Positions 1-28,252 of a stretch of DNA of 64,000 nucleotides are shown piece after piece. Where the stretch lies: assembly GCF_014359565.1 (NCBI RefSeq), contig NZ_JACIZD010000001.1, forward strand, positions 248,001-312,000, read 5' to 3'. How positions within the stretch are numbered: position 1 is the stretch's first letter; every line of letters begins with the position of its first letter. The translations under genes were made by a program, and so were the position numbers. The notes below the pieces were generated by a model. It did not search any database. It had not been told where the DNA came from and saw nothing but the letters and a program-made list of their open reading frames with translations. The stretch is from Immundisolibacter sp. (GTDB lineage Bacteria; Pseudomonadota; Gammaproteobacteria; Immundisolibacterales; Immundisolibacteraceae).

Positions 1-647
1 TGCGCGCGCGCCGGCGGCGGCTCGAACTGCTTGACCACCACGTCCTGGAGCCGCCACACGCGGTCCTGCTCCAGACTCGCGCGCTCGGCATGCAGATAGC
101 GCCGCAGACGCCCGGCGTCATCAAAGTCATACACCGTCACATCGGACGGGGTGCGCCCGCGCAGCATGCGCCCGACGTTCAGGAAACTGCGCCCGTCGCG
201 CGACCAGAAGCCGCCGCGAAAATCCACCGACACATCCTCGGCCAGCGCCGCGGCGCGCATGCGCTCGGCGCGCATCTCCAGTGCCGGCGCCACGAATTGG
301 GCCATCAGCAGCATCAGCATCAACAGCGTCAGGCCGGGCGCCAGCACCATGCCGATCAGCCGCCGCAGCGGCAGGCCGGCGGCGCGCATGGCCAGGATCT
401 CGTTGCCGTCCGCGAGCAGGCCCAGCGGCACCAGCGTGCCCAGCAGGGCGATCACCGGCGTGGCATCCAGCAGCCGGCGCGGCAACATCATCAGCACGTA
501 CAGGAATGCGTCGACCAACGTGTAGGCGCCCTCGACGTCGTCGAGCTGCTGGATCAGCTCGATGAAACTGAACAGCGCCACGAACACCAGCGCCACCAGC
601 AGGTAGCCCTGCGCCATGGCGCGGGCGATGTAACGGGCGAGAATCAT
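1..647 (-). CDS. lptG: LptG, LPS export ABC transporter permease (3' end outside window)
   Basis: This is the inner-membrane permease that pairs with LptF and the LptB ATPase to extract lipopolysaccharide and push it through the Lpt bridge. The visible 215 codons begin MILARYIARAMAQGYL, followed by a hydrophobic segment and a second hydrophobic stretch near residues 60-115, as expected for the YjgP/YjgQ fold. The family is about 355 residues long, so roughly the last 40 percent lies beyond base 1. The start ATG overlaps the lptF stop in an ATGA at 644-647, so the two are translationally coupled. Order lptF-lptG is the usual one. LptF and LptG are paralogues; the assignment here rests on gene order and on the N-terminus. 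Confidence 0.9.
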   Translation of the reverse strand, partial: MILARYIARAMAQGYLLVALVFVALFSFIELIQQLDDVEGAYTLVDAFLYVLMMLPRRLLDATPVIALLGTLVPLGLLADGNEILAMRAAGLPLRRLIGMVLAPGLTLLMLMLLMAQFVAPALEMRAERMRAAALAEDVSVDFRGGFWSRDGRSFLNVGRMLRGRTPSDVTVYDFDDAGRLRRYLHAERASLEQDRVWRLQDVVVKQFEPPPARA

Positions 648-1720
648 CGGTGGCGGCGACGCCGCCACTGTGGCAGCACGATCAGCACGGCCAGCACCAC
701 GCAGCCGAGCAGGGGAACGAGCAACACCCCGGGCCAGGGCGCCAGCTCGCCGTTCTCCACCGCATCCATCACCACCGCCAGCAGGTTGTAGTACACGATG
801 CAGCCGAGCAGGCCGACCGTCAGCTTGCTGGAGCGGCTGCGCCGCGGCGGCATGCGGCTGATCGGCACGCCCAGCAGGCCCAGCAGGACGGTGGAGAACG
901 GCGCGGCGATGCGCCACTGCAGCTCGGCCGTGTCCTTCGGATCCGCGGACGCCGCCAGCTCGCCGTTCGCGGTGGCCTTGCGGCGCTTGCGCACGATGGC
1001 CTGCTCCTCGTCCAGGCGCAGCGCCAGCGTGCGGTAGCTGATGATCATGTCGCTGCCCAGGCTGTCGCCCGTGCCCGGATCGAGCTGGTAGTAGCGGCCG
1101 TCGAGGAATTCCACGACCTGCCGCCCGTCGGAGTCGGTGAGCTGGCGTGCCCGCTGGGCGAACACCACCCCATCGGCCTGGCCGCCGCTGTCGGCGTGGG
1201 TGAACACCTGCAGCCGCTCGTCACCGTCGGCCGCTTCGCTGAACATCACCAGACCGCCGGTGAAGTCGGCATAGAACCGGCCCGGCGGCAGGCGCGTCAG
1301 GTCGAAGCGGCGCTCGGCGCTGGCCTCCAGCCGGTAGACGTTCTGATACAGCTGCGGGCGCACCACCAGCGATGCGACTGCCACTACCGCCGCCACCGGC
1401 AGCGCCAGCCACAGCACGGCCTGGAACAACCAGCGTTCGCCGATGCCGCAGGCTGCCAGGGCGGTGGTCTCCTGATCGCGCTGCAGGCGCCCCAGGCCGA
1501 GCGCCACCGACAGCATCAGCGCCATCGGCACGATGGCGTCCAGGCTGATGAACAGCTTCAGCCCGATCAACACCGCCGCCAGGCTGCCGGGCAGTGCGCC
1601 GCTGGCCGCCTCGCCCAGAAAGCGCGCCGAGCTGTAACCGGTAAAAACCAGCAGCAGGCTGCCGCACACCACCGCAAACGGGCTCGCCAGCTCGCGCAGC
1701 AGGTAGCGTCTGAGGATCAT
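644..1720 (-). CDS. lptF: LptF, LPS export ABC transporter permease
   Basis: The 358-residue protein is a YjgP/YjgQ-family permease for lipopolysaccharide transport. It starts MILRRYLLRELASPF and has an N-terminal hairpin of membrane helices (about residues 12-75), another membrane segment near 100-125, a soluble periplasmic beta-jellyroll-like middle (about 130-270) and two or three C-terminal helices (about 275-350). This is the normal LptF layout and length. The C-terminus is strongly basic (WRRRRHR). It is the first gene of the lptF-lptG pair and faces away from the nucleotidyltransferase gene at 1995, so the 274-base gap between them must carry its promoter. Confidence 0.93.
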   Translation of the reverse strand: MILRRYLLRELASPFAVVCGSLLLVFTGYSSARFLGEAASGALPGSLAAVLIGLKLFISLDAIVPMALMLSVALGLGRLQRDQETTALAACGIGERWLFQAVLWLALPVAAVVAVASLVVRPQLYQNVYRLEASAERRFDLTRLPPGRFYADFTGGLVMFSEAADGDERLQVFTHADSGGQADGVVFAQRARQLTDSDGRQVVEFLDGRYYQLDPGTGDSLGSDMIISYRTLALRLDEEQAIVRKRRKATANGELAASADPKDTAELQWRIAAPFSTVLLGLLGVPISRMPPRRSRSSKLTVGLLGCIVYYNLLAVVMDAVENGELAPWPGVLLVPLLGCVVLAVLIVLPQWRRRRHR

Positions 1721-1994: not shown

Positions 1995-2717
1995 ATGCAG
2001 GCCGTCATCCTGAGCGCCGGTCAAGGCCGGCGCTTGCTGCCCCTCACCGCCGATCGCCCCAAGTGCCTGGTCGACCTGCACGGCAAGACGCTGCTGCAGT
2101 GGCAACTGGACGCCCTGCTGGCGGCCGGCGTCGGGCCGATCACCGTGGTCACCGGTTACGCCAGCGAGGCGGTCGAGGCGGTAATCGCCAGCCACTACGC
2201 CGGGCGCCCGGTGCAGGTCCAGTTCAACCCGTTCTTCCAGGTGGCGGACAACCTTGGCAGTTGCTGGATCGCCCGCGCCGCCTTCGACGGCGAGCTGCTG
2301 CTGCTCAACGGCGACACGGTGTTCGAGCCGGCGGTCGTGCAGCGCCTGCTGGCGGCGCCGGCGGCGCCGATCCGCCTGGCCATCGACCGCAAGGCCAGCT
2401 ACGACGACGACGACATGAAGGTCATCGTCGATGGCGAGCGCCTGCTGCGCATCGGCAAGCAGCTGCCGGTGGATGCGGTGGATGCCGAATCGATCGGCAT
2501 GCTGCGCTTCGACGCCGACGGGGCACGACATTTTCAGGCGGCCGTCGAACGCGCGCTGCGCGAGCCCGACGGCCTGCGCTGGTGGTATCTGTCGGTGATC
2601 GACCGGCTGGCCGACGAGGGCCTGGTCATGACCTGCTCGATCGAAGGCCTGCGCTGGGCCGAGGTGGATTTCCCGCGGGATCTGGACGCCGCGCGGGCGG
2701 TAGTGGCCGAAGGCTGA
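1995..2717 (+). CDS. LicC-like nucleotidyltransferase (sugar/choline/inositol-phosphate NTP transferase type)
   Basis: This 240-residue protein has the GT-A-like nucleotidyltransferase fold that transfers NMP from CTP or another NTP to a phosphorylated alcohol or sugar. The signature loop is at the extreme N-terminus (AVILSAGQGRRLLPLT, then RPKCLVDLHGK, with the conserved Arg and Lys), and a metal-binding Asp lies in LLLNGDTVF. A longer open frame runs upstream from 1719, but the nucleotide-binding loop normally begins within a few residues of the start, so ATG 1995 is chosen. It is single-domain, unlike GlmU. It lies beside the ceramide-synthesis genes, so activation of a head group is the inferred role; the substrate cannot be read from the sequence. 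Confidence 0.75.
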   Translation: MQAVILSAGQGRRLLPLTADRPKCLVDLHGKTLLQWQLDALLAAGVGPITVVTGYASEAVEAVIASHYAGRPVQVQFNPFFQVADNLGSCWIARAAFDGELLLLNGDTVFEPAVVQRLLAAPAAPIRLAIDRKASYDDDDMKVIVDGERLLRIGKQLPVDAVDAESIGMLRFDADGARHFQAAVERALREPDGLRWWYLSVIDRLADEGLVMTCSIEGLRWAEVDFPRDLDAARAVVAEG

Positions 2718-2747
2718 TCCGTCCCCGCTCCCGGCCCCCGACCTGTC

Positions 2748-2838
2748 CGCGGCGGGGGCGCCGCTCACACAGCGCTTCCGCGGTGTGGGAAGCCCGCCCC
2801 CGGGCCGAATGTCAGCCGAATGCTTCGGCGTTTCCTTA
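2748..2838. repeat. Dispersed REP-like repeat, copy A
   Basis: The gap between two convergent genes holds a composite of short GC-rich inverted repeats. A 32-base block at 2780-2811 matches the reverse complement of 17553-17584 with two differences. A 21-base block at 2817-2837 matches 17625-17645 in the same orientation, also with two differences. A third block near 2748-2769 is the inverse of the GTGGGAGCGGCG motif seen at 17516 and 34699. The element reaches into the last codons of the minus-strand gene ending at 2836. Confidence 0.7.
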
Positions 2839-3627
2839 GCCGGCGCCGGCCAACAGTCGCTCGACCAGCTCGAAATCGGCCACCGAATCGACATCCACCG
2901 CCGCCCGCGGATCGTCCAGCAACACGGCCCCGAGCCGCGCCCCTACCCGCCGCGACAGGCGTTCTAGGCCCGCCTCCAGGGTCAGCCAACCGCACAGGTA
3001 CGCCAGCAGCGTACCCGGACCGAGCGCCGCGGCCAGCCGGTGCGGCTTCTTGCGCTGCTGCTCGATGTGGCGCCAGAACTCGGGCGCGCGCCGACCGGCC
3101 GGGGTCAGAAACGCAAACAGATTGCAGCCGCAGTAGGCGCCATCCCGAAACCGCAGCGCCGTGCGGCGCGACTGCGGAAATGCCGCCTGCACCGCCGCAT
3201 GGCGCGCCAGGCCGACGACGGCATCCTTGCCGGTCGCCTGCGCCGCGGCGCAGAAGGCATCGACCCAGCCGGCCTGCAGCAAGGCGTGGTCGGCCGTCGT
3301 GAGCAGCACCGGCGTGTCCGCCGGCACGCTGGCCAGACCCGCCAGTGCACTCTGGCTGGGCGAGGGCGCCGGCGCCAACCAGCTCAGCTCGCCGTCGGCA
3401 ATCCGCCGCGCCAGCGGCGGGCAGGCGGCGATCTGCTCCCGGCTCGGGCCGACCAGCGTCACCCCGTCCACCGCCGTGCTGCCCGCCAGCGCGTCCAGCA
3501 CGCGCAGCAGCATCGGCTGGCCGGCCAGAGGCACCAGCGCCTTGCCGGCGGCGCCGACGTGGCGTGCCACCGGATCGTCGGCGCCGCGGTCGCCGGCCAG
3601 CACCACGGCATGAAAGCGGGCGCTCAA
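2836..3627 (-). CDS. MobA-like NTP transferase family protein
   Basis: This 263-residue protein starts with the nucleotidyltransferase loop FHAVVLAGDRGADDP, followed by GKALVPLAGQPMLLRVLDAL, as in the MobA/GlmU-like NTP transferases. A candidate metal-site Asp occurs in LLTTADHALL. The chosen start is TTG at 3627, whose bases overlap the stop of the preceding gene in a TTGA. The in-frame extension to 3720 would lie entirely inside the neighbour and adds nothing family-like. Coupling to the GNAT acyltransferase gene suggests that it acts on the same lipid, perhaps activating a polar head group. Together with the gene at 1995 it makes two NTP transferases flanking one pathway. The substrate is not known. 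Confidence 0.7.
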   Translation of the reverse strand: MSARFHAVVLAGDRGADDPVARHVGAAGKALVPLAGQPMLLRVLDALAGSTAVDGVTLVGPSREQIAACPPLARRIADGELSWLAPAPSPSQSALAGLASVPADTPVLLTTADHALLQAGWVDAFCAAAQATGKDAVVGLARHAAVQAAFPQSRRTALRFRDGAYCGCNLFAFLTPAGRRAPEFWRHIEQQRKKPHRLAAALGPGTLLAYLCGWLTLEAGLERLSRRVGARLGAVLLDDPRAAVDVDSVADFELVERLLAGAG

Positions 3628-4760
3628 AGCGCCTTGCCGTAGATGCGGTAGCGCTTGTAGCAGCGGCTGCCCAGCGACTCGATGATGCTGCGCATGCCGC
3701 GGTTGTCCTCCAGAATCCACGACATCTCAGCCTGCTTGACACCGCGCCGCAGACCGGTCTGGCGGGCGGCATCGATCACCAGCATGGCCAAGGCGGTGCC
3801 CAGCCGGGTGCGCTGCAGGCGTTGGCGCACGCCCATCAGCGCCACCCGCACGGCCTTCGGGTGGCGCACCTTGAGCCGCCACAGCAGCCTGGCCCAGCCA
3901 AACGGCAGCAGGCGGCCATGCAGGTCCGCGATCGCCTCGTTTAGGTTGGGCAGCACGGCGATCATCGCCACCGGCTCGCCGGCCACCTCGGCGATCTGCA
4001 CGAAGCCGGGGTCGACCAGCCACCGCACCAGTTGCCCCAGGGCCTTGAACTCGGCCTCAGTGAACGGCACGAAGCCCCAGTTGCCGGCCCAGGCATCGTT
4101 GAAGATGTCGCGCAGGATGGCGATGTCGCGGTCCAGGTGCTTGAGGTCCAGCGACCGCAGCGTGACCTGGTCACGCTCTCGCTCGAGCAGGCGCTGGGCC
4201 GCCGGCGGGAATCGAAAATCCGTACCGACTATGTAGGCCAGCAGATCCTTGGCCTTGGCATAGCCCTGCTCCTGGACGCGCGGCCCGTAGTACGGCAGGG
4301 CATGGCCCATCATCACCATCGGCGGGGTGTCGAAGCCGTCCACCAGCAGCCCGCATTCCTCGTTGACGGACAGGTTGAAAGGTCCGCGAATCTCGGTCAT
4401 CCCCTGGCCACGCAGCCAGTCTTCCGCAGCGCCCAACAGGGCCGCGAATACCTGCGGGTCGTCTTCGGCCTCCAGCAGCCCGAAATACCCGACCCGCTCG
4501 CCGTGCGTCTGCTCGTGCAGCCGGTCCACCTGCGCGCTGATGCGCCCGACCACCTGGTCGCCGCGCTTGGCCAGCCAGGCCTGCCAGCGGGCGTGCTCGA
4601 ACAGCGGATTGCGGGCCGAGAGCAGTTCATGCCGCTCCAGCAGCAGCGGCGGCACCCAGTGCGGATCGTTCCGGTACAGGCGCTGTGGCAGCGCCCAGAA
4701 AGCACGCCTGGCCGACCGCCCCATCAAGGGCGTGACGGTCAGCGACGCCAGGCCGTTCAT
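3624..4760 (-). CDS. GNAT-fold N-acyltransferase, candidate bacterial ceramide synthase (bCerS-like)
   Basis: The 378-residue protein belongs to a large bacterial family with a C-terminal GNAT (acyl-CoA/ACP N-acyltransferase) fold. Conserved-looking blocks include LYRNDPHWVPPL near the start, GYFGLLEAEDDP, GPFNLSVNEECGLL, the Asn/Trp-rich NDAWAGNWGFVPF and a final SWILEDN motif. In Caulobacter a GNAT-type protein of this size acylates 3-ketosphinganine to ketoceramide; assignment to that role here rests on the adjacent serine palmitoyltransferase, ACP and CerR-like genes. ATG 4760 is chosen, with GTG 4766 as an alternative. The longer frame up to 4934 runs through the AT-rich divergent promoter region and was rejected. 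The gene is divergent from the HIT-led operon. Confidence 0.65.
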   Translation of the reverse strand: MNGLASLTVTPLMGRSARRAFWALPQRLYRNDPHWVPPLLLERHELLSARNPLFEHARWQAWLAKRGDQVVGRISAQVDRLHEQTHGERVGYFGLLEAEDDPQVFAALLGAAEDWLRGQGMTEIRGPFNLSVNEECGLLVDGFDTPPMVMMGHALPYYGPRVQEQGYAKAKDLLAYIVGTDFRFPPAAQRLLERERDQVTLRSLDLKHLDRDIAILRDIFNDAWAGNWGFVPFTEAEFKALGQLVRWLVDPGFVQIAEVAGEPVAMIAVLPNLNEAIADLHGRLLPFGWARLLWRLKVRHPKAVRVALMGVRQRLQRTRLGTALAMLVIDAARQTGLRRGVKQAEMSWILEDNRGMRSIIESLGSRCYKRYRIYGKAL

Positions 4761-5043
4761 GCGCACAGCCGGCGCGAGGCAAACAGACGAAAACGGATCA
4801 TCGACCACCTGGCGGACAAGGAAAGCGCGGCCCAACCGGCCGCCGATTTTTCGAACACATGTTGGATACGTTATATTCCGCGGCAATTTTACGATTGTGA
4901 CGAAATCATGTATCCGGCTCCCCGGCCCATGCATGCGGTCATCGAAGCGAAAGCCACACAGGGTTCAACTTGCTCGCCGTACCAGCCCAAGCCTTGTCTG
5001 CCTTTCGATCAGCGGTACATATACCGCCTCCTGACAGCCCGGC
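4761..5043. promoter_or_regulatory. Divergent intergenic region between the bCerS-like gene and the HIT-led operon
   Basis: These 283 bases separate two divergent transcription units of the putative sphingolipid locus. The stretch around 4848-4912 is clearly richer in A and T than the surroundings. A possible plus-strand sigma-70 promoter is TTGTCT at 4994-4999, a 16-base spacer and TACATA at 5016-5021, placing transcription start near 5028, 16 bases before the HIT start codon. A minus-strand TATAAC at 4870-4875 could be the -10 of the acyltransferase gene, but no good -35 was found for it. All of this is by eye. Confidence 0.4.
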
Positions 5044-5472
5044 ATGAACGCCACGGCGCGAAAATTCGGCGACCCGGCCACGCGCATCGCCACCTGCGGT
5101 GCCTGGACCGTGCTGCTGCGCCCACGCCAGCCGACGCTGGGCGCGCTGGTGCTGGTGTGTGATGAACCGGTACGCGCGTTCGGTGATGTGAGTGCGGCGG
5201 GCTACGCCGATCTTGCCCGAACCACCCGCCGCGTCGAGGCCATGCTTGGCGCCGCATTTGCTTATGACAAGATCAATTACCTGATGCTCATGATGGTGGA
5301 CCCCGACGTGCATTTCCATGTCCTGCCGCGCTATGCGCAGGTCCGGCACTTCGCCGGGCATGCGTTTTCCGATCTGGCCTGGCCCAACGCCCCGGATCTG
5401 GGTTTCGATCATGCCATCGACGCCGCGACGCAGGCCACCCTCATCGCGCGCCTGAAAGAGGCGTGGCAATGA
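5044..5472 (+). CDS. HIT-like family protein
   Basis: This 142-residue protein has the histidine-triad signature region VDPDVHFHVLPRY, with His90 and His92; the third His of a classic HxHxH triad is replaced, so it is a HIT-like rather than canonical HIT hydrolase. Such proteins cleave or transfer nucleotide-phosphate bonds. It leads the five-gene run HIT, acyl ligase, reductase, ACP and synthase, and its stop overlaps the next start (ATGA at 5469-5472). A role in handling a nucleotide-linked intermediate made by the nearby NTP transferases is possible but unproven. Confidence 0.7.
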   Translation: MNATARKFGDPATRIATCGAWTVLLRPRQPTLGALVLVCDEPVRAFGDVSAAGYADLARTTRRVEAMLGAAFAYDKINYLMLMMVDPDVHFHVLPRYAQVRHFAGHAFSDLAWPNAPDLGFDHAIDAATQATLIARLKEAWQ

Positions 5473-7268
5473 GCGGTGCGGCCCGGGCCAACCCGGACTT
5501 CGGCCACCGCGCGTCCATGACCCAGCCGACGCCGACGCACAATACCCTGCCGGTGCGTTTTGCCGACTTCGATACGCTGACCGACGCGCTCGATTACGCG
5601 GCAGCGGGCACCACCGGCAGCAATTTCTACAATGCGCGCGGCGATCTGGCGCTGGCGCTCAGCTACGCCCAGCTGCGTCGGGATGCGCTGGATCTTGCGC
5701 AGCGCTTCGCGGCTCTGGGCCTGCCCCGGCAGGCACGCGTGGCGCTGGTGGCGGAAACCGACCCGGACTTCGTGCGGCTGTTTTTCGCCTGCCAGTACGC
5801 CGGCCTGGTGCCGGTCCCCCTGCCCGCGGCGGTGCACCTGGGCGGGCGTGAGGCCTTTGTGCGCCAGTTGCGCACCATGCTGGACGGTTGCCAGGCCAGT
5901 GTGGCGATCGCGCCGCCGGACTTCGGCCCCATGCTGCACGCCGCCGCCGTCGGTATGCCGCTCGCGTTCTGTGGCACGCCCGATGAGTTCCGTGCGCTGG
6001 CGCTGGCGGACCGCCCGCCGCAGCCGTCGCAGCCCGACGAGCTGGCCTATTTGCAGTACACCTCCGGCAGCACCCGCTTCCCGCGCGGGGTGATGATCAC
6101 CCACCGCACCGTGATGCAGAACCTGCAGGGCATCGTGCGCCACGGCCTGGCCATCAGCGACGCTGACCGCTTCATGTCCTGGCTGCCCTTCTATCACGAC
6201 ATGGGACTGGTCGGACTGGTGTTCTCGCCGCTGGCCGCGCAGCGTTCCGTGGACTACCTGGGCACGCGCGATTTCGCCATGCGGCCGCGCCAGTGGCTGG
6301 CGCTGATGTCGCGCAATCGCGCCACCATCGCCTTCAGCCCGCCGTTTGGCTACGCGCTGGTCGGGCGCCGCCTGCGGCCGACCGATGTCGCCCAGTACGA
6401 CCTGTCGGCCTGGCGCATCGCCGGTGTCGGCGCCGAGACCATCCGCGCCGAGACGCTGGAAAAGTTCGCAGCGGTGCTGCACGACAGCGGCTTTCGCGCC
6501 GAGGCCTTCCTGCCGTGCTACGGCATGGCCGAGTGCTCGCTGGCGGTCAGTTTCGCGCCGCTGGGCCTGGGCATCGACACCGACACCGTGGATGCCGAAG
6601 TGCTTGGCCATCAGCGGGTGGCGCAAATCGCCGACGCGCAGACCGCCAGCGTCAACCGCTTCGTCAATTGCGGCACGGTATTGCCGGGACATTGCCTGGA
6701 AATTCGCGACGAGACCGGACGCCGACTTCCGCAGCGGCGCTGCGGCACCATTTTCGTGCGCGGACCCAGCGTCATGTCCGGCTACTTCGGCGATGCCGCC
6801 GAAACCGCCCGCGTGCTGTCACCTGACGGCTGGCTCAATACCGGCGATGTGGGTTATCTGGCCGACGGCCGCCTGTTCATCACCGGTCGCGAGAAGGACC
6901 TGTTCATCATCAACGGGCGCAACATCTGGCCGCAGGATCTCGAATTCCTGGCCGAACAGCAGCCGGAGCTGCGCCCGGAAGATGCCTCGGCGTTCGCCGT
7001 GCCCGACGCCAACGGCGACGACCTTGCGGTGCTGGTCGTGCAATGCCGCGAGCACGACCCGCTGCGTCGCATCGACCTGGTCACCCGCCTGCAGGGCCTG
7101 ATCAAGGCCGAGCTTGGCATTCCCTGTTTCATCGAACTGGTGGCCCCGCACACCCTGCCGCGCACCTCGTCGGGCAAGCTGTCGCGTTCCGGCGCCCGCC
7201 GCGACTTCCTGGAGCGCAACGGCAACCAGGCGCTGACGCCCGATCGCCTCGCCAAGAGCGTTGACTGA
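5469..7268 (+). CDS. Fatty acyl-AMP ligase / acyl-ACP synthetase (AasR-like)
   Basis: The 599-residue enzyme is an ANL-superfamily adenylate-forming ligase that activates a fatty acid with ATP and probably loads it on the ACP encoded just downstream. The P-loop-like core motif YTSGSTRFPRG is at residues 197-207, SWLPFYHDMGL follows, and the hinge and C-terminal catalytic Lys lie in YLADGRLFITGREKDL and LPRTSSGKLSR. The SWLPxxHDMGL block is typical of fatty acyl-AMP ligases rather than CoA ligases. ATG 5469 overlaps the HIT stop; ATG 5517 is an alternative start nearer the conserved region. In Caulobacter an acyl-ACP synthetase of this kind (AasR) belongs to the ceramide gene set. Confidence 0.8.
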   Translation: MSGAARANPDFGHRASMTQPTPTHNTLPVRFADFDTLTDALDYAAAGTTGSNFYNARGDLALALSYAQLRRDALDLAQRFAALGLPRQARVALVAETDPDFVRLFFACQYAGLVPVPLPAAVHLGGREAFVRQLRTMLDGCQASVAIAPPDFGPMLHAAAVGMPLAFCGTPDEFRALALADRPPQPSQPDELAYLQYTSGSTRFPRGVMITHRTVMQNLQGIVRHGLAISDADRFMSWLPFYHDMGLVGLVFSPLAAQRSVDYLGTRDFAMRPRQWLALMSRNRATIAFSPPFGYALVGRRLRPTDVAQYDLSAWRIAGVGAETIRAETLEKFAAVLHDSGFRAEAFLPCYGMAECSLAVSFAPLGLGIDTDTVDAEVLGHQRVAQIADAQTASVNRFVNCGTVLPGHCLEIRDETGRRLPQRRCGTIFVRGPSVMSGYFGDAAETARVLSPDGWLNTGDVGYLADGRLFITGREKDLFIINGRNIWPQDLEFLAEQQPELRPEDASAFAVPDANGDDLAVLVVQCREHDPLRRIDLVTRLQGLIKAELGIPCFIELVAPHTLPRTSSGKLSRSGARRDFLERNGNQALTPDRLAKSVD

Positions 7269-8187
7269 CGCCGGCAGCGGAACGGTCGCCATCACCGGCG
7301 CCAGCGGTTTCGTCGGCGCTGCCCTGGCCCACCATCTGGCCAGCCAGGGTTGGCGTTTGCGGCTGCTGGTGCGGCCGGGCTCGCAAGACCGCCTGCCCCG
7401 GATCGACGGTGCGCAGGTCGTCACCGGATCACTGGGCGACGCGAATGCCCTGCGGCAGTTGCTGGACGGCGCCCCGGCACTGGTGCACTGCGCCGGGGCG
7501 GTGCGCGGACTGACGCGCGCCGACTTCGACCGCGTCAATGTCGACGGCGTACAGGCGCTGCTGGACGCCACCGACGCGGCCCAGCGGGTGGTGCACATCT
7601 CGTCGCTGGCGGCGCGTCATCCCGGCCTGTCGCACTACGCCGCCAGCAAGCTGGCCGGCGAGCAGCGGGTGATCGACCAACTGCCGCCCCAGCGGCGGGT
7701 CGTGCTGCGCCCGCCGGCGATCTACGGCCCGGGCGACCGGGAACTGCGTCCGCTGCTGGACCGGATGATGCGCGGCCTGGCGCTGCTGCCGGGCCCACCG
7801 GGGGCTCGATTCTCGCTGCTGCACGTCCACGATCTGGCCCGCGCCGTCGGCTGCCTGTTGGCGGGCGATGCCGGCTGGGGCCAGACCCACGAGCCGGACG
7901 ACGGCCACCGGCCAGGCTACGGCTGGCAGGATCTGCTGGACGCCGTCGCCCGGCTGCGCGGCGCGCCGGTGCGAGCCGTGCGCGTACCCGGTCCGCTGCT
8001 GTCGGCGCTGGGCGCCTGCAACGAACTGGCGGCCCGGCTCGCTGGCCGCGCGCCGATGCTCAGTCGCGGCAAGGCACGCGAGCTGCGCTGGCCGGACTGG
8101 CTCGCCGGCGGCAACGCCAGCCTGCTCGGCTGCGGCTGGCGGCCGGAAATCACACTCGATCAGGGGCTGCGGGACACGCTTGGCTGA
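7261..8187 (+). CDS. NAD(P)-dependent epimerase/dehydratase-fold reductase (CerR-like)
   Basis: This 308-residue extended short-chain dehydrogenase has the Rossmann loop TGASGFVG at residues 12-19 and the catalytic Tyr126-x3-Lys130 in YAASK, with HISSLA supplying the Ser. The RPPAIYGPGD block is typical of the epimerase/3-beta-hydroxysteroid dehydrogenase branch. In the bacterial ceramide pathway the CerR enzyme of this family reduces the keto group of ketoceramide; position between the acyl-ACP ligase and ACP genes supports the same role. The start is TTG 7261, giving an 8-base overlap with the preceding gene; no in-frame ATG lies close to the Rossmann loop. Confidence 0.75.
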   Translation: MTDAGSGTVAITGASGFVGAALAHHLASQGWRLRLLVRPGSQDRLPRIDGAQVVTGSLGDANALRQLLDGAPALVHCAGAVRGLTRADFDRVNVDGVQALLDATDAAQRVVHISSLAARHPGLSHYAASKLAGEQRVIDQLPPQRRVVLRPPAIYGPGDRELRPLLDRMMRGLALLPGPPGARFSLLHVHDLARAVGCLLAGDAGWGQTHEPDDGHRPGYGWQDLLDAVARLRGAPVRAVRVPGPLLSALGACNELAARLAGRAPMLSRGKARELRWPDWLAGGNASLLGCGWRPEITLDQGLRDTLG

Positions 8188-8259
8188 GCCGGGCCGCTAT
8201 ACTCCCGCCGCCAGCCGCGCCAGTTGCGCGCAGGGCAGCAGGCGAGCGGGAGGAACCAC

Positions 8260-8502
8260 ATGGCAGTCAGCGCACAGCGCATCCTCGAAACCCTGCAGGA
8301 TCGCCTGAACGCTCTTACCGGCGGCAAGGCGGTCAGCGGCGACACCGATCTGGTCGGCGACCTGGGACTCGATTCCCTGCAGGTCATGGAATTACTGATG
8401 GAAATGGAAGACGCATTCGACATCTCGATCCCGGTCAACGTGATGGCCGACGTGCGCACCGTCGGCGAGCTTGCCGCCGCCGTGCAAGCCCTGCTCGCCT
8501 GA
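8260..8502 (+). CDS. Acyl carrier protein dedicated to the sphingolipid operon
   Basis: The 80-residue protein is an acidic four-helix ACP. The phosphopantetheine attachment site is Ser39 in LGLDSLQVMELL. It would carry the acyl chain used by the synthase, by the N-acyltransferase or by both. A strong ribosome-binding site, GGGAGGA at 8248-8254, precedes the ATG and breaks the pattern of overlapping starts, which fits a need for more ACP than enzyme. It is 14 bases upstream of the synthase gene. In Caulobacter a dedicated ACP (AcpR) is likewise next to spt. It differs from a housekeeping AcpP, which would be among fab genes. Confidence 0.88.
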   Translation: MAVSAQRILETLQDRLNALTGGKAVSGDTDLVGDLGLDSLQVMELLMEMEDAFDISIPVNVMADVRTVGELAAAVQALLA

Positions 8503-8516
8503 TCCGGCGGCCCGAC

Positions 8517-9731
8517 ATGGCTCTGTTCGACAAACTCGCGAGCGCTGCCGCGGTTCGCCGCGACGTGATCAGCTCCGGCGGCCTGGTGCCGTTCGGCGTC
8601 ACCGTGGAGCGCATCGTGTCGCCCACCGAGGGCATGGTCGCCGGCCGTCGGGTGATCCTGGGCGGCACCAACAACTACCTTGGGCTGACCTTCGACCCCG
8701 AGTGCATCGAGGCCGGTGCCGCCGCGCTGCGCAGCGAGGGCACCGGCACCACCGGTTCGCGCATGGCCAACGGCAGCTACGCCGGCCACTTGGCGCTGGA
8801 ACACGAACTGGCACAGTTCTACGGCTGGCCCCAGGCGATCGTGTTCTCGACCGGCTACCTGGCCAACCTGGGCATGATCGGCGCGCTGGCCGCGCCGGGC
8901 GACGTGCTGGTCATCGACGGCGACTGCCACGCCAGCATCTACGACGGCTGCAAGCTGTCCGGGGCGGAAGTCATCCGCTTCCGGCACAACAATGCCGCCG
9001 ATCTTGACCGCCGTCTGGCCCGCCTGGGCGAGCGCGCCCAAAATGCCTTGGTCATCGTCGAGGGTATTTACAGCATGCTGGGTGACCAGGCGCCACTGGC
9101 CGATATTGCCGCGGCCACACACCGCCACGGCGCCCTGCTGATGGTGGACGAGGCGCACTCGCTGGGCGTGTTGGGTGCCAACGGCCGGGGCCTGTGCGAA
9201 GCCGCCGGCGTGATGGACAGCGTCGATTTCGTGGTCGGTACCTTCAGCAAGAGCCTGGGCGGGGTCGGCGGTTTCTGCGTCAGCCCGCACGCCGAGCTTG
9301 GCCTGGTGCGCTACACCAGCCGGCCGTACATCTTCACCGCCTCGCCCTCGCCGGCCACCATCGCCTCCACCCGCACCGCGCTGGCTGCGCTGCGCAGCCG
9401 CCCGCAGCTGCGCCAGCGGCTGTGGCACAACGTGTCGCGCCTGCACGCGGGCCTGACCGCGATGGGTCTGCCGCCGGCGGCCGAGCCGAGCCCGGTGCTG
9501 GCGGTGCTGCGGGACAGCCGCGACCAGGCCCTGGCCGACTGGCAGCAGTTGCTGGATGCCGGTGTGTACGTGAACCTCATGGTGCCGCCAGCCACGCCGG
9601 GCGGCATCAGCCTGCTGCGCTGCAGCATCAGCGCCGCCCACACCGACGCGCAGATCGACCAAATTCTCGCCGCCTTCCGCGCCCTGCCGGGCGCCGGTCA
9701 CGCTGTCGCGGGGCAGGCTGCTCTGGCATGA
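8517..9731 (+). CDS. spt: Serine palmitoyltransferase (alpha-oxoamine synthase)
   Basis: This 404-residue PLP enzyme condenses serine with a long-chain acyl thioester to give 3-ketosphinganine, the first sphingolipid intermediate. Visible landmarks are GTGTTGSR at 75-82, the ring-stacking His138 in DGDCHAS, DEAH at 211-214 and the PLP Lys245 in GTFSKSLGG. These are shared with 8-amino-7-oxononanoate synthase, glycine C-acetyltransferase and ALA synthase, so the family alone does not fix the substrate; adjacent ACP, acyl-ACP ligase, CerR-like and bCerS-like genes strongly favour serine palmitoyltransferase. No other biotin gene is present. Its stop overlaps the next start in ATGA (9728-9731). 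Confidence 0.85.
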   Translation: MALFDKLASAAAVRRDVISSGGLVPFGVTVERIVSPTEGMVAGRRVILGGTNNYLGLTFDPECIEAGAAALRSEGTGTTGSRMANGSYAGHLALEHELAQFYGWPQAIVFSTGYLANLGMIGALAAPGDVLVIDGDCHASIYDGCKLSGAEVIRFRHNNAADLDRRLARLGERAQNALVIVEGIYSMLGDQAPLADIAAATHRHGALLMVDEAHSLGVLGANGRGLCEAAGVMDSVDFVVGTFSKSLGGVGGFCVSPHAELGLVRYTSRPYIFTASPSPATIASTRTALAALRSRPQLRQRLWHNVSRLHAGLTAMGLPPAAEPSPVLAVLRDSRDQALADWQQLLDAGVYVNLMVPPATPGGISLLRCSISAAHTDAQIDQILAAFRALPGAGHAVAGQAALA

Positions 9732-12028
9732 GCCAAGCCGCCTCGCGGTCGACCCCGCCGGCACAAGCGCCCCTGCTCACCCCGGTGGTTTTCGAGGCGG
9801 TGGCCGGGGCCGCCGCCAGTCCGTTGCCGCCGGTGCGCATCTTTCTTGGCACCGAACCGGCCCAGCACCGGGCCGAGCGGGTGTTTTTCCACTCCCTGAA
9901 AAAGGTCCGCGATCCGGCGCGCCGGTACGAGGTGTACCGCATGACGCGCCTGCCGGGCTTCGCGCAGGGCCCGTGGCGCACCGGCTTCACCAACTTCCGC
10001 TTCGCCATTCCGGATCTGGCCGGTCGCCACGGGCGCGCGATCTACAACGACGTTGACGAGATTTACCTGGCCGACCCGGCGCCGCTGTTCGACCTGCCGA
10101 TGGGCGAGGCCGGCTATCTGGCCCTGACCCCGGCCGATACCGCCGTGATGCTGCTCGACTGCGCGCGCATGGCCGAGGTGTGGACGCTCGAGCGCGCGCA
10201 GCGCCTGGGCAAGAAGACGCTGCTGGAACTGGCGGCCGAGAAGCCCGGCCTGTGGGCGCCGCTGCCGGCGCAGTGGCACGCGCGCGACATGGAGTACCAG
10301 CCGGGCTTCACCGCCTGCCTGCATTACACGGCGCTGAACCTGCAGCCGTGGCACCCCGCGCCGGACCAGTATTCCTACCACCCGCACCCGCTGGGCGAGC
10401 TGTGGCGCGACCTGGAGCGCGAGGCCGATGCCGCCGGCTACGAGATTTTTTCCGCCGCAAACCCGAGCCCGGCCTTTGCCGGCGCGGTGGCCCGTCTGGC
10501 AGCGGCGCCGCGCTGGCAGTTGCCAGCCGATGTCGCTGCGCTGGCCGGTCGCCCGGGCAGCGTGGCGGCGGTGGGACCGCTCGATACCAGCGCGCTGGGC
10601 GCGCCCGAGGTGGCGGAGCTGACGATCGATGCGCTCGCCGACGCCAAGGCCGACCTGGTCGCCGCGGCTCGCCTGGATCAGTGCCCGGCGGACGATCTGC
10701 CGTGGCTGATCGACGCCCTGTTCGCCGCCGCTCAGCGCGCCGTCTACCTGGCCGTGGCGCCGGCCGCTGCCGAAGAGCCGGCGGATACCGAGGCCTGGTG
10801 GCGGGCACGCTTGCGCGCCGCCGTGCGCCGCCACCCTGGCCGCGCCTGGCGGCTCGACGTGCTGGATGCCGCCGGCCAGCGAACGCACGGCTGGCAGGCC
10901 AAGGCGCCCGCCGGCATGGCACCGACCGTGTGGCGGCTGCACGGCAAGCACGCCGGCGACAACGCGCAGATCGACGCCTTGGCCGCCGCCCTCGGCTGGC
11001 CGAGTCGGCCGCACCGCCTGCGCTTCTCGCCGCGGTCACGTCTGCCCGGCTGGCTCAAGGGCGCGAACCGGCTGGGCCTACTCGGCAGCGAGCCGGCGCT
11101 CGAACCGCCGTGGCCGGACCTGGTCATCGCCGCCGGCCGGCGCAGCGCCAACGTGGCGCGCTGGATCGTCAAACAAAGCGGCGGGCGCACGCGCAGCGTG
11201 CTGCTGGGCCGGCCGCGGGCACCGCTGTCGACCTTCGATCTGGTGATCACCACGCCGCAGTACGGTCTGCCGGTGCGCAGCAACGTGCTGCACCTGCCGG
11301 CACCGCTGGCGCTGCCCGCCACCGCCGACGACGCCACGCTGGAGGCCTGGCGCGCGCGCTGGGCGGCACTGCCGCGGCCATGGATCGGCCTGTTGGTGGG
11401 CGGCGACCGCGCGCCGTACCGGATCGATGCCGACGCCGCCCGGCGGCTGGCCGCGGCAGCACGGGCGCTCGCCGCCCAGCGCGGCGGCAGCGTGCTCGCC
11501 ACAACCGGCCCGCGCACCATGCCGGCGGCGGCCGAGGCGCTGGTCGCGGCGCTCGGCGAGCGCGCCTTCTGCCACCGCTATGTGCCGGGGCAGGCGGACA
11601 ACCCGTACCGCGCCTTGCTGGCACTGGCCGACCAGTTCATCGTCACCGGCGACAGCGCCTCGATGCTGGCCGAGGCGGCGGGCACCGGCAAACCGCTCGC
11701 GGTGTTCGAACCGCCCCGCCAAAGCACCGCCGCCAAGCGCCTGCTGCACTGGCTCGAACAGCGCCTGGGCCTTATCGAGCGCGGCGCCGGCAGCCGCGGC
11801 ACGGCTCGGCAGCAAAACCGCCTGGGCCGCGCCTATGACCGCCTGCTGGCGGCCGGCATCGTCGATCGCGAGCGCGATGTCGCCGCCGTGCAGCGCAGCC
11901 TGGGACTGCTCACCCTGCCGGCCGAGCCCGCGCCGGCGCAACTCGGGCCGGCGCAGCGGGAGCGAGCGCTCGCCGACGCCGCCGTGCGGGCGCGCGAATT
12001 GCTGACTGCCGAACAACGCCTCGACTGA
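9728..12028 (+). CDS. Fused glycosyltransferase-ELM1 domain protein
   Basis: This 766-residue cytoplasmic protein joins two domains. Residues about 35-290 look like a GT-A glycosyltransferase, with a DxD-type metal motif at Asp108-Val-Asp110 followed by EIYL. Residues about 400-745 are an ELM1-like (DUF1022, GT-B-resembling) domain, with LHGKHAGDNAQIDALA, VIAAGRRSANVARW and TGDSASMLAEAA blocks. An Ala-rich linker of about 110 residues lies between them. The ATG overlaps the synthase stop, so the protein is made together with the sphingoid-base enzyme. A role in glycosylating the sphingolipid is inferred. The ELM1 half is paralogous to the separate gene at 15277-16362. The long upstream frame extension inside spt was rejected. 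Confidence 0.72.
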   Translation: MSQAASRSTPPAQAPLLTPVVFEAVAGAAASPLPPVRIFLGTEPAQHRAERVFFHSLKKVRDPARRYEVYRMTRLPGFAQGPWRTGFTNFRFAIPDLAGRHGRAIYNDVDEIYLADPAPLFDLPMGEAGYLALTPADTAVMLLDCARMAEVWTLERAQRLGKKTLLELAAEKPGLWAPLPAQWHARDMEYQPGFTACLHYTALNLQPWHPAPDQYSYHPHPLGELWRDLEREADAAGYEIFSAANPSPAFAGAVARLAAAPRWQLPADVAALAGRPGSVAAVGPLDTSALGAPEVAELTIDALADAKADLVAAARLDQCPADDLPWLIDALFAAAQRAVYLAVAPAAAEEPADTEAWWRARLRAAVRRHPGRAWRLDVLDAAGQRTHGWQAKAPAGMAPTVWRLHGKHAGDNAQIDALAAALGWPSRPHRLRFSPRSRLPGWLKGANRLGLLGSEPALEPPWPDLVIAAGRRSANVARWIVKQSGGRTRSVLLGRPRAPLSTFDLVITTPQYGLPVRSNVLHLPAPLALPATADDATLEAWRARWAALPRPWIGLLVGGDRAPYRIDADAARRLAAAARALAAQRGGSVLATTGPRTMPAAAEALVAALGERAFCHRYVPGQADNPYRALLALADQFIVTGDSASMLAEAAGTGKPLAVFEPPRQSTAAKRLLHWLEQRLGLIERGAGSRGTARQQNRLGRAYDRLLAAGIVDRERDVAAVQRSLGLLTLPAEPAPAQLGPAQRERALADAAVRARELLTAEQRLD

Positions 12029-12060: not shown

Positions 12061-12954
12061 TCAGGCGGCGGCTTGTCGACGCACCCGCGCCAGCACCTCG
12101 AAGGCGTCGTGGCGCACATGGTCGCGCGCCATCTGCTCGCGCAGCATGGCCTCGGTCACCAGCCCCTGATCGAGACACTCGCCGAGCAGCTGGAAGAAAA
12201 ACGCCTCCACGGCCGGCTGCGGGTGCGGTTCGTAGGTCGCCCGCGGTGCCGGCTTGCCCTTGATGCTGCGCACCATGCTGCGCAGCCGCCCGCCCAATGA
12301 GCGATCCAGATGCCGCGCCGAGGGCGTGAAATCCACCGGCAGGCCGGTCTTCCAAGGCTGCGTGCGGCGCTTGGTTGTGTGCAGCATCTGCGTGGCCGGG
12401 GTGAGCCGGTCGAAGTCGTTCCACTCGGGCTCCAGCAGCCCGATGGTCGCCGGATCCTCGCAGCGCAGCGAGATCCAATCCATGTAATCGCGCCGCATCT
12501 GGAACAGCTCCTCGAACTGCTCCTCGCAGCGCCAGTGCGTGAGCCTGGCGCAGTCGAGCAGCATCACGCTGGAGGCGTACTGCTTGGCACCCTCCCGCGC
12601 CCGGCACATGATGGCGCTGCCGTGCATGTCGCGCGTCAGCAGCGCGTGCACGTCGCCCACCGCGAACACGTCCGGGTCCACCACCACCGCCCGGCCCTGG
12701 TAGCCCATCAGTGCCGGCGGCAGGAAACGCAGCGGCGTGAACGACTGCAGGTCATCGTTGCGCCACACGCGCGTGGCGCCGTCGCGCAGGAAGGCGCGCC
12801 CCTCGTGCGCTGCCAGGAACGGCTGCTCCTCGGCCTTGATGATGCGCACCTCGAAGGCGTCCGGCTGGCGCGAATTGCGGCGCATGGCGTGGGCGGCAAC
12901 GATGGCGCCGATGATCTGCTTCTCGTTGGTGTGGATAAAGACCGTGCCGTCCAC
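12061..12954 (-). CDS. GT-A type glycosyltransferase family protein
   Basis: The 297-residue protein has a nucleotide-sugar glycosyltransferase layout: an N-terminal beta strand (TVFIHTNEKQ), a metal-binding Asp93-Pro-Asp95 in VVDPDVFAVG, and MLHTTKRRTQPWKTGLPV, a His/Lys/Trp block typical of family-8-like enzymes near the donor site. Start is GTG 12954, with a GGAGG five bases upstream; this decides the start. No signal peptide is seen, so it acts in the cytoplasm. It converges on the fused glycosyltransferase-ELM1 gene with a 32-base gap, and belongs to the surface-glycan annex. Donor and acceptor are unknown. Confidence 0.7.
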   Translation of the reverse strand: MDGTVFIHTNEKQIIGAIVAAHAMRRNSRQPDAFEVRIIKAEEQPFLAAHEGRAFLRDGATRVWRNDDLQSFTPLRFLPPALMGYQGRAVVVDPDVFAVGDVHALLTRDMHGSAIMCRAREGAKQYASSVMLLDCARLTHWRCEEQFEELFQMRRDYMDWISLRCEDPATIGLLEPEWNDFDRLTPATQMLHTTKRRTQPWKTGLPVDFTPSARHLDRSLGGRLRSMVRSIKGKPAPRATYEPHPQPAVEAFFFQLLGECLDQGLVTEAMLREQMARDHVRHDAFEVLARVRRQAAA

Positions 12955-13308
12955 GCTCGCCTCCGCTGGCCGCCTGACGCGCCCTCAACTGGCGCGCCTT
13001 GTCGGTTCGAAGGGTACCCGCGTCGGGGTGCGCCGCCAATTGCCCGCCGTCAAGCGCCGCGCTGCTTGGCGCCGGCTCACGCCAAGCCGCTGGGTGGCGC
13101 CGCACAGCGCTGGGGCTGGCGGCGCGACTGTTAAACTTCGCCCGAGCCGCGTGCGATCGCCCGCCGCTCCCGCGGCACCCGACGCCAATCACGAAATCCC
13201 CGCCAGGCACGCCTGAACGCGCCGCCCAGCAACGGCCCGATCACCAGCTAACTGCCGCGTCGGCGTCATGCCCGCTGTGGGCCCCTGCATCAGACGAGGT
13301 CACCACGC
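12955..13308. other. Divergent intergenic region without a convincing gene
   Basis: These 354 bases separate the minus-strand glycosyltransferase from the plus-strand methyltransferase. Short open frames here have arginine/proline-rich translations typical of GC-driven shadows and no family features. The region should contain both promoters. The only AT-rich spot is around GTTAAACTTC near 13128-13138. No RNA gene, terminator or clear repeat was seen. Confidence 0.5.
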
Positions 13309-14268
13309 ATGTCGAGTGTTCCGGTTCCGCTGTCGTCGCTGACGGACGCGCTGGGCGTCACACCCGGGCAGATCGATGAGCTGCTGGAACCGTTCGTGTC
13401 GGCGCAGGTATCGCGTTTCGATCGGCGCTGGCAGACACAGGTCTGGCGGCAGCGCTACAAGGTCCTGCGCCGGCTGTGGCGCGCCCCGGGCCACCAGGGC
13501 TCCTTGCCACAGGGCCGCAGCGTCGAGGTGGTGCAAGCCGAGTATGGCGATGTCTGGTCACGCTGGGCTTTCGACCGCTACGACCTGCGGCAGGCTTCCA
13601 GCGACGCCACGCCGTGGCTATGGCGTGGTCAGCGCCTGCTGGCGAACACCCTGGGCGCCACGCGCTGGCGCCAGCTGCTGTTGATCAAGGCCATCGAGCG
13701 GGTGCGCCCGAAGACGGTGCTCGAGGTCGGCTGCGGCAACGGCATCAACCTGCTGCTGCTGGCCTGCCGCTTTCCGGACATTGCCTTCACCGGCATCGAA
13801 CTGACGGCCGAGGGACACGCCGCGGCACAATCCTTTCAGCAGACCCATGCGCTGCTGCCGGAACATCTGCAGGCCTTCGCGCCGCAGCCGCTGGCCGACC
13901 TGCAGGGCTTTCGCCGGGTGCGCTTCGTGCAGGGATCGGCGACCGAGCTGCCGTTCGAGAACGGTGCCTTCGACATGGCCATCACCGTGCTGGCGCTGGA
14001 GCAAATGGAGCAGATCCGTGCCCGGGCGCTGGCCGAAATCGCTCGCGTGGTGCGCTCGCACGCGCTGATGATCGAGCCGTTTCGAGACGTGAACCGCGGC
14101 TTCTGGCAACGCCTCAATGTCGATCGGCGCAACTACTTTCGCGGCAGCATCGGCGAGCTGGCCGACCACGGGCTGCGCCCGCAGGTGGCCTGCGCCGATT
14201 TTCCGCAGAAATACATCCTGCGCGCCGCGCTGGTTCTGAGCGAGCGGGTGAATCAGCCCAGCGGGTAG
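13309..14268 (+). CDS. Class I SAM-dependent methyltransferase
   Basis: The 319-residue protein has an N-terminal helical segment of about 130 residues and then a Rossmann methyltransferase core: motif I VLEVGCGNGIN near residues 138-148, an acidic residue after the next strand (FTGIELT) and a motif resembling post-II/III ELPFENGAFDMAITVLALEQ. This last block is typical of the UbiE/COQ5-like Methyltransf_11 group. The acceptor is unknown. It overlaps the sulfotransferase gene by 16 bases tail to tail. Its surroundings of glycosyltransferase, sulfotransferase and ELM1 genes suggest modification of a glycan or lipid head group. Confidence 0.75.
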   Translation: MSSVPVPLSSLTDALGVTPGQIDELLEPFVSAQVSRFDRRWQTQVWRQRYKVLRRLWRAPGHQGSLPQGRSVEVVQAEYGDVWSRWAFDRYDLRQASSDATPWLWRGQRLLANTLGATRWRQLLLIKAIERVRPKTVLEVGCGNGINLLLLACRFPDIAFTGIELTAEGHAAAQSFQQTHALLPEHLQAFAPQPLADLQGFRRVRFVQGSATELPFENGAFDMAITVLALEQMEQIRARALAEIARVVRSHALMIEPFRDVNRGFWQRLNVDRRNYFRGSIGELADHGLRPQVACADFPQKYILRAALVLSERVNQPSG

Positions 14269-15104
14269 CCGAAGCTGGGATCCAGTTCGGCCCGCACCTG
14301 GGCGTCGATGCGGGCCACCTGCTCGGGCGTGTAGACCTCCCGGTAGCCGCCCACGCGCCCGCTGCGCACCTTGAACGACTGCGGGTTGTTCACGTCGCGC
14401 GGCTTGAGCCGACTGGACGCCCGCGGATCGTCGGCGTTTTGCCGCTCCAGGCGCTGCATGTTCTGGAAGGAACCGTACTCGACCGCCGCGCGCACCGCGG
14501 CCGGATCGACACTGCCGGCCACGAAGCGGATCAGCTGTTCCAGGGCCTCCTGCGGGGTGCGGCGCAGGTCTTCGTAACGCACGCGCAGCACGTCGTCGCG
14601 ACCGGCGGTTTCCGCTGCCAGGCGATTCATGAAGGCGATCAGATTGTCGAGCCCGGTGCGCGGATGCTGGGTGAATTCCCACAGATCCAGCGGTCCGTAT
14701 GGATAGTCGTTGACCCAGTGCTTGCCCGGCTTCATGCGGTGCTGCCAGTGGTGGTAGAAGGACACCAGCACGTCCCCGGGCTCGCGCACCAGCAGTACCA
14801 GTCGTTTGCCGGCATGCCAGGGCTGCGCGCCGCGCGCGCTCCAGTCACGGATGTAATTGTCGTGACTGAAGAACACCCCGACCGGCGCACCCGCCGCACG
14901 CTCGTAGGCGGCCAGCATGGTGGCAAGCCAGGTGCGTCCACTCTTGGCGTGCGACAGCACCACCGCATTGGCGCGCCCGATGCAGCGCGCCTCGTGCCAG
15001 CCGCGAACCTGGCGCGCAAAGCGCTTGCGCCGCGGCGGCGGCAACACACGACCCGCTCGCAGCAAGACGGCGCGCAGCAGATCATCGACTCTGGCAATCG
15101 ACAC
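14253..15104 (-). CDS. PAPS-dependent sulfotransferase family protein
   Basis: This 283-residue protein has the 5'-phosphosulfate-binding loop of sulfotransferases, VVLSHAKSGRTWLATML at about residues 48-64 (PKSGTTWL type), and the 3'-phosphate-binding strand-helix LVLLVREPGDVLVSFYHHW around 110-130. YEDLRRTPQEALEQLIRFV matches a later conserved block. It would transfer sulfate from PAPS to a hydroxyl of a glycan or lipid. Start GTG 15104 is chosen because GGAGG lies four bases upstream and the longer in-frame extension is Ser/Arg-rich without motifs. No PAPS synthesis gene is in the window. Sulfation of the sphingolipid or its sugar is an inference from proximity. Confidence 0.78.
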   Translation of the reverse strand: MSIARVDDLLRAVLLRAGRVLPPPRRKRFARQVRGWHEARCIGRANAVVLSHAKSGRTWLATMLAAYERAAGAPVGVFFSHDNYIRDWSARGAQPWHAGKRLVLLVREPGDVLVSFYHHWQHRMKPGKHWVNDYPYGPLDLWEFTQHPRTGLDNLIAFMNRLAAETAGRDDVLRVRYEDLRRTPQEALEQLIRFVAGSVDPAAVRAAVEYGSFQNMQRLERQNADDPRASSRLKPRDVNNPQSFKVRSGRVGGYREVYTPEQVARIDAQVRAELDPSFGYPLG

Positions 15105-15186
15105 GATGCCTCCGCAAGGTGAGCGGCTCGAACATGACCGGCAGTCCAACACGGACGCGCTCGATCGTGTGAGCCATCGGAAAACT

Positions 15187-16362: not shown

Positions 16363-16518
16363 GGGCGGGCTTTCTCGCGGCACTGCGACAGGTGCAGGCC
16401 GGCTGTGCGTCAGGAAGGCGGGGATTATCGTTGCAAACGCCCACCGGCACGGCGACCGGGAGCGTTCCAAGTGCCAGGCTTCGCCGCGTGCGCCTCAGGC
16501 GCTGAACACAGACGTTCT

Positions 16519-17499: not shown

Positions 17500-17515
17500 G
17501 GTGGCCTCCTTCGAT

Positions 17516-17645
17516 GTGGGAGCGGCGCCCCCGCCGCGAATCTTCGATCGAGCATTCGGCCCGAGGGCGGGCCTCCCACACCGCAGAACCGCGGTGGGAA
17601 ATTCCATGGCTCCGGTGCAGGCGCTGAATGCTTCGGTGTTTCCTT
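17516..17645. repeat. Dispersed REP-like repeat, copy C
   Basis: This copy fills the gap between the VOC gene and the transporter gene. It has the 25-base unit starting GTGGGAGCGGCG at 17516-17540 (one difference from 34699-34723), the 32-base block 17553-17584 that is the inverse of 2780-2811, and the 21-base block 17625-17645 matching 2817-2837. The mixed orientations look like a mosaic of alternating palindromes, as in bacterial BIME clusters. Confidence 0.7.
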
Positions 17646-17662
17646 TGGATTCAGGTGTCGAC

Positions 17663-19054: not shown

Positions 19055-19103
19055 CTCCCCTCCGTGTCGCGTTGTCGGGCGCCGGTCTTGGCGCCGTGCC
19101 CGG

Positions 19104-19523: not shown

Positions 19524-19536
19524 GGCAGATTTCCGG

Positions 19537-21630: not shown

Positions 21631-21697
21631 GAAACCTCCTTGACGAAAAACGGCCGCGGGCCGGGCACCGGTTGGCACCCGGCCCGCGGAATCAGAT

Positions 21698-22183: not shown

Positions 22184-22219
22184 TTGTCCCCCTCCCGTAA
22201 CGGTGTGTTCTGGTAACGA

Positions 22220-22570: not shown

Positions 22571-22600
22571 GCGATTTCTCCTTGGTGATTCGCCAGCCGG

Positions 22601-23653: not shown

Positions 23654-23665
23654 GAATGTTTCTCC

Positions 23666-28170: not shown

Positions 28171-28252
28171 GGTGTTTCTCCTTAGTTATGGGTGGCGATG
28201 GAGATGCTGGCCGCCGAGCGACGGCGTGCTCGCGAAGGTCGGCCGATGCTCG

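Follow-up and report, generated by a model that had tools for sequence, protein, structure and literature searches.

The window, by which we mean the whole 64,000-nt stretch analysed here, carries at its left end a gene cluster that begins 5.8 kb upstream of the window itself (the desaturase start used is L003:12163, equivalent to window position -5837). L003 denotes positions 230001-249800 of contig 1, and a window position is the L003 position minus 18000. The genes of the region, in the order in which they lie, are as follows.

Upstream of the window (L003 coordinates)
12163-13260: fatty acid desaturase-family gene
13253-14206: DAGK-type kinase (PF00781, GGDG motif)
14203-15141: CC_1161-like gene, assigned by conserved neighbourhood only
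15279-16436: CDP-alcohol transferase (PF01066)
16538-17476: metallophosphoesterase (PF00149)

Within the window
1..647, minus strand: lptG, sphingolipid-linked type, 5' end of the gene (whole gene, L003:17586-18647); TIGR04408 322 bits, cut-off 240
644..1720, minus: lptF, sphingolipid-linked type; TIGR04407 277 bits, cut-off 230
1995..2717, plus: CC_1152-like nucleotidyltransferase (PF12804/PF00483); adjoins SPT in many compared loci
2836..3627, minus: CC_1153-like, MobA-like nucleotidyltransferase (PF12804, 56.7 bits); adjoins SPT in many compared loci
3624..4760, minus: GNAT N-acyltransferase, putative bacterial ceramide synthase of the CerS/YghO family (PF00583)
5044..5472, plus: HIT-domain protein (PF01230, 22.9 bits, cut-off 21.5)
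5469..7268, plus: AasR, fatty acyl-AMP ligase / acyl-ACP synthetase (NF006624, 800.7 bits, cut-off 600); 49% identity to the E. coli orthologue
7261..8187, plus: CerR-like NAD-dependent reductase (PF01370, 75 bits); 44% identity to the E. coli orthologue, at the equivalent position
8260..8502, plus: AcpR, dedicated acyl carrier protein (PF00550, 55.3 bits); 47% identity over 72 residues to the E. coli orthologue
8517..9731, plus: serine palmitoyltransferase, SPT (NF047599 equivalog, 604 bits, cut-off 500)
9728..12028, plus: GT8-like/Elm1 fusion (PF06258, 177 bits); GT8-like at about residues 35-210, Elm1 at 409-685
12061..12954, minus: GT8-like glycosyltransferase without a Pfam match (Foldseek GT8 E 5e-9)
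13309..14268, plus: methyltransferase (PF13649/PF08241), link to the cluster unproven
14253..15140, minus: sulfotransferase (PF00685, 57 bits)
15277..16362, minus: second Elm1-domain protein (PF06258, 180 bits), 47% identical to the Elm1 part of the fusion

The initial annotation had described a five-gene ceramide synthesis locus at 1995-12028. All five core proteins were found where it had placed them, with Pfam and NCBIfam scores far above chance, and the coupled starts and tight overlaps that it reported were confirmed: ATGA overlaps at the HIT/AasR and SPT/fusion junctions, a TTGA overlap at which the TTG start of the nucleotidyltransferase lies on the GNAT stop, and 8 bases shared by the AasR and CerR reading frames. 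The start of AasR is ambiguous, being either 5469 (coupled) or 5517 (by homology), and the coding regions of lptG and lptF overlap as well. The range did not hold as the limits of the cluster, which begins upstream of the window and includes lptG and lptF at the left edge. Neither are the five genes alone within it, as two nucleotidyltransferases, the HIT protein and the GT8-like/Elm1 fusion lie inside the same range. The set of genes for a phosphosphingolipid (CPG) is complete, comprising the kinase, the CDP-alcohol transferase, the phosphoesterase, both nucleotidyltransferases and, by neighbourhood only, the CC_1161-like gene. The methyltransferase at 13309 was set aside as a member, since no homologue of it adjoins SPT in the compared loci.

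Two other parts of the window drew our attention. Positions 17000-36000, with a short-chain fatty acid transporter, acyl-CoA ligases, a luciferase-like monooxygenase, a Rieske ring-hydroxylating oxygenase and a flavin monooxygenase-like gene, have the appearance of a region for the catabolism of aromatic or alicyclic compounds. A phytoene desaturase-like gene and its neighbours at 41163-44948, recognised by eye in the first part of the translation, are possibly a carotenoid cluster.

Ceramide core enzymes and their published relatives

The synthase was assigned to SPT both by score and by phylogeny. Its scores against the models of related families fall below their cut-offs (bioF, 318 vs 426 bits; KBL, 256 vs 493; ALAS, 220 vs 339), and its best matches in the PDB are SPT structures (2x8u, 431 bits), with KBL and BioF structures at 208 and 205 bits, respectively. 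In an IQ-TREE tree of 93 sequences, from which ALAS was left out, the window SPT joined 82 other cluster SPTs including 2x8u with support of 100/99, apart from BioF and KBL, which formed their own groups. The active-site residues H138, D211 and H214 and the PLP lysine K245, matched to 2x8u, are invariant in the alignment. A separate BioF gene is present in the genome, on contig 9.

The GNAT protein belongs to the bacterial ceramide synthase family as had been suspected, sharing 49% identity over 376 of 378 residues, i.e., its whole length, with E. coli YghO, the orthologue of CC_1154 (PMC9386255). The dedicated acyl carrier protein is encoded 5' of spt, and the fatty acyl-AMP ligase lies in the same gene run, as expected of an AcpR/AasR pair. 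An Epimerase-family reductase (PF01370) is found inside the cluster, as expected of CerR. The location of CerR is periplasmic (PMC11087976), and inspection of the window CerR by eye revealed no obvious signal peptide. Neither outcome that the initial annotation had named as refuting, a synthase grouping with BioF or KBL and a GNAT protein outside the ceramide synthase family, was observed. With these core families, an E. coli-like gene order and the SPT tree, the ceramide-pathway reading of the locus proved right, and the organism very likely makes ceramide.

The HIT gene deserves a comment of its own. It lies where CC_1157 would be expected, as does the HIT gene of a Caulobacteraceae locus (L083), and CC_1157 has been called probably unrelated (PMC11324152). 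HIT genes adjoin ceramide clusters in 16 of the compared loci, from alpha- and gammaproteobacteria and Nitrospirota. On the grounds of this recurrence and of the ATGA coupling to aasR, we argue for a link of the HIT gene with the ceramide cluster, contrary to the published view.

The initial annotation also regarded sphingolipid synthesis as known for few gammaproteobacteria, which is weaker than stated. Ceramide clusters have been described in E. coli BL21, Azotobacter vinelandii and Pseudomonas luteola (PMC9386255, PMC11324152), being contiguous in the latter two (PMC11324152), and in E. coli B the five ceramide genes are clustered and SPT, AcpR and AasR were shown to work (PMC9386255). A match to spt was found in 4,020 of 5,426 complete E. 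coli genomes (~74%; partial query cover, 60-80% identity), so a ceramide cluster as such is no novelty. SPT scored above the cut-off in 16 of 276 genomes sampled from Gammaproteobacteria, and a scan of named genomes returned at least 588 relatives, spread over many gammaproteobacterial orders and other phyla. The best 80 of these include the gammaproteobacteria Pseudomonas, Azotobacter, Thiohalobacter, Dyella, Serratia, Tatumella, Panacagrimonas and Solimonas, as well as Nitrospirota, Gemmatimonadota and Fidelibacterota.

The region CC_1168-CC_1152 of Caulobacter crescentus (PMC11324152) shares with the present cluster the five ceramide genes, ceramide kinase, CC_1161-, CC_1159-, CC_1158-, CC_1153- and CC_1152-like genes and an LptF/LptG pair. 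We judged this likeness through orthologues in E. coli and in L083, where the accessory set adjoins SPT in the published order. Here, however, the genes are rearranged, a desaturase lies inside the cluster, a GT8/Elm1/sulfotransferase block has been added, the genome has no LptFG pair besides that of the cluster, and no LptC2, CC_1167 or CC_1166 gene was recognised in the cluster (judged without homology search). The E. coli cluster yghO-aasR-cerR-acpR-spt with lptG/lptF (PMC9386255; L024) has the same five-gene order and orientation at 44-57% identity, and its linked LptFG falls in the same clade as the window pair; it is without the HIT, CDP-alcohol, kinase and nucleotidyltransferase genes of the present cluster, and E. 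coli K-12, unlike the present genome, has a housekeeping lptFG adjoining pepA. The ceramide/CPG2 clusters of Azotobacter and Pseudomonas (PMC11324152; L034, L070) share the order of CDP-alcohol transferase, LptFG, both nucleotidyltransferases, GNAT, AasR, CerR, AcpR and SPT, but show no GT8/Elm1 block in the flanking sequence that was retrieved. Two features of the present cluster were not found in published descriptions of such clusters, namely a sphingolipid-linked LptF/LptG pair that is the sole pair of the genome and the GT8-like/Elm1 fusion overlapping spt.

The glycosyltransferase block next to spt

The N-terminal part of the fusion protein is homologous to the GT8-like protein encoded at 12061. 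Alignments revealed two invariant aspartates in each, D108 and D110 in the GT8-like domain of the fusion and D93 and D95 in the protein at 12061. A GT8-type fold is predicted for the latter, with Foldseek GT8 TM-scores of only 0.46-0.58 for a model of pLDDT 85. For the fusion, Foldseek returned GT-B hits on a low-confidence model (pLDDT 61.5), which is too weak for a firm claim on its fold.

A GT8-like match was detected in only 8 of the 276 class genomes, and seven of the eight are SPT-positive (Fisher p 4e-9, kinship ignored); the family adjoins SPT in several families. Of the 16 SPT-positive genomes of the class, 12 have the Elm1 domain, against 50 of the 260 others. In G081, G122, G194, L029, L032, L044 and L084, the SPT cluster is interspersed with GT8-like, Elm1 and mostly also sulfotransferase genes, and homologues of the sulfotransferase adjoin SPT in L029, L032, L044, L048, G081 and G122. 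Some of these genomes are rich in such genes: five Elm1-domain genes were counted in G081 and six in G194, several of them around the SPT cluster, and G194 has seven GT8-like matches.

Because the GT8/Elm1/sulfotransferase block recurs adjoining spt elsewhere, we suggest that sugars are added to the lipid, and the product would then be a glycosylated, perhaps sulfated, sphingolipid. It could be argued instead that the cluster yields ceramide or phosphosphingolipid only and that the block is a chance neighbour engaged in the synthesis of the LPS core. Elm1 proteins are predicted GT-B glycosyltransferases, one of which is needed for assembly of the lipooligosaccharide core in Acinetobacter (PMC10936431), and the LptFG pair of the present locus probably serves LPS (see below), both in keeping with a role in the core. 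Nevertheless, the ATGA overlap between the fusion and spt, together with a GT8-like family nearly confined to SPT-positive genomes, speaks against chance, and we regard a block devoted to the LPS core as unlikely. The Elm1 proteins of the Acinetobacter lipooligosaccharide loci (PMC10936431, PMC4172580) share the Elm1 domain, whereas in the present cluster it forms one protein with a GT8-like domain, and the gene for this protein is coupled to spt.

The sole LptF/LptG pair of the genome

The source genome (G000, 100% complete) carries one LptF and one LptG, as do G001 and the congeneric G002, the last of which is a single contig of 3,243,537 bases. Since NCBIfam scores do not tell the two types of LptFG apart, we relied on trees for typing. 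Both the LptF tree (100/98) and the LptG tree (SH-aLRT 98) split SPT-adjoining copies from housekeeping copies and placed the window pair with the former, outside the LptFG group of SPT-negative gammaproteobacteria. In the LptF trees, one copy from G150 that is not in an SPT cluster branches basally on the cluster side. Four or more LptF/G-like hits were found in 10 of 16 SPT-positive genomes and 1 of 260 others (p 1e-13, a value that overstates independence because the genomes share ancestry, as do the sequences in the LptF tree). The sister genus g2 (G003-G006) has one housekeeping-type pair and no SPT above the cut-off. In G122 and G129, the sphingolipid-type LptF is also the sole LptF.

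Both G000 and G002 encode LpxC, LpxB and LptD, which makes a working LPS route in the source genome likely; the idea that sphingolipids have replaced LPS entirely was dropped for this reason. As the window pair is the only one in a genome that keeps these three genes, we propose that it carries LPS too. This dual cargo is a tentative reading, albeit one that comes close to being evenly balanced. On the same tentative footing stands the proposal that an LptFG of the sphingolipid type replaced the housekeeping LPS exporter, leaving one inner-membrane machine for LPS and sphingolipid, possibly without a classical LptC. Alternatively, ceramide is made and this LptFG is simply the housekeeping LPS exporter, adjoining the cluster by chance and unrelated to sphingolipids, as its being the sole pair beside LpxC, LpxB and LptD and its passing the curated cut-offs for LptF and LptG would allow. 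Yet both proteins fall inside the clade of SPT-adjoining copies from other species, many of which carry a housekeeping pair in addition, and the pair of the sister genus is of the housekeeping type; we consider a chance neighbour quite improbable.

The residue at E. coli LptF position 212, at the interface with LptC, also separates the two types. Arginine occupies this position in 35 of 36 housekeeping copies and in none of 30 cluster copies, and the window LptF has tyrosine. In E. coli, replacement of this residue by Gly, Ser or Cys renders cells viable without LptC if LptA is overexpressed (PMC9972910). The Pfam model for LptC (PF06835) had no match in G000, G001 or G002 and a clear match in G003 of the sister genus; we take this as a lead only, because LptC is poorly conserved and the same model also misses G081. 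We found no support for a tie between the loss of Arg212 and the missing LptC2 of the cluster, as most alphaproteobacterial sphingolipid-linked LptF proteins are also without the arginine (some alignments being uncertain) and Caulobacter has LptC2.

G122 (40 contigs, 100% complete) is a case apart. It has SPT, no LptF but that of the sphingolipid type and a GT8/Elm1/sulfotransferase cluster rich in genes, and no match to LpxB was found although LptD is present. This bacterium may be without lipid A.

Proposed pathway and its implications

Judged from its gene content, the cluster is one for the biosynthesis and export of a phosphosphingolipid, as in Caulobacter and some gammaproteobacteria, and ceramide plus phosphosphingolipid is, as a whole, a likely reading. 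The initial annotation recognised the ceramide pathway and left out head-group synthesis and export.

From the identity and order of the genes and the single-copy state of lptFG, all observed directly, we infer enzyme activities, head-group chemistry and cargo as follows. AasR would load a fatty acid onto AcpR, and SPT would condense acyl-AcpR with serine to 3-oxo-sphinganine. An alpha-oxoamine synthase that uses cysteate, alanine or glycine, yielding a sulfonolipid or deoxy-sphingolipid rather than ceramide, is highly improbable, for although substrate choice cannot be read with certainty from sequence and the protein also matches the cysteate acyltransferase 28eh, that match reaches 176.5 bits vs 431 for the SPT 2x8u, NF047599 is above its cut-off and the protein is 57% identical to E. 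coli Spt, which has been shown to be active (PMC9386255). The lipid may be hydroxylated by the desaturase-family enzyme. The kinase, for which the ceramide kinase CpgB serves as the comparison (PMC10331486), the CC_1161-like protein, the two nucleotidyltransferases, the CDP-alcohol transferase and the phosphoesterase would build a head group of the phosphoglycerate type. The gene set from the kinase to the nucleotidyltransferases has been linked to ceramide phosphoglycerate in Caulobacter (PMC11324152), and by analogy the head group here is probably of that type. The GT8/Elm1 fusion, the GT8 protein and the sulfotransferase are candidates for the attachment of further sugars or of sulfate. Finally, extraction of the product from the inner membrane would fall to the sphingolipid-type LptF and LptG; the pair would have replaced the housekeeping LptFG in this genus and would most likely export LPS too.

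A second LptFG pair has been proposed, without test, as a selective carrier of sphingolipids (PMC11324152). Either the sphingolipid-type pair of the source genome handles LPS as well as sphingolipid, or a different route exists for LPS. The presence of a sole pair of the sphingolipid type together with lipid A genes and LptD makes the question of how bacterial sphingolipids reach the outer membrane directly testable, and the single-exporter case is a testable variant of a known system. The spt-linked GT8/Elm1 family, in turn, provides candidates for the glycosylation of sphingolipids by enzymes other than the known glycosyltransferases.
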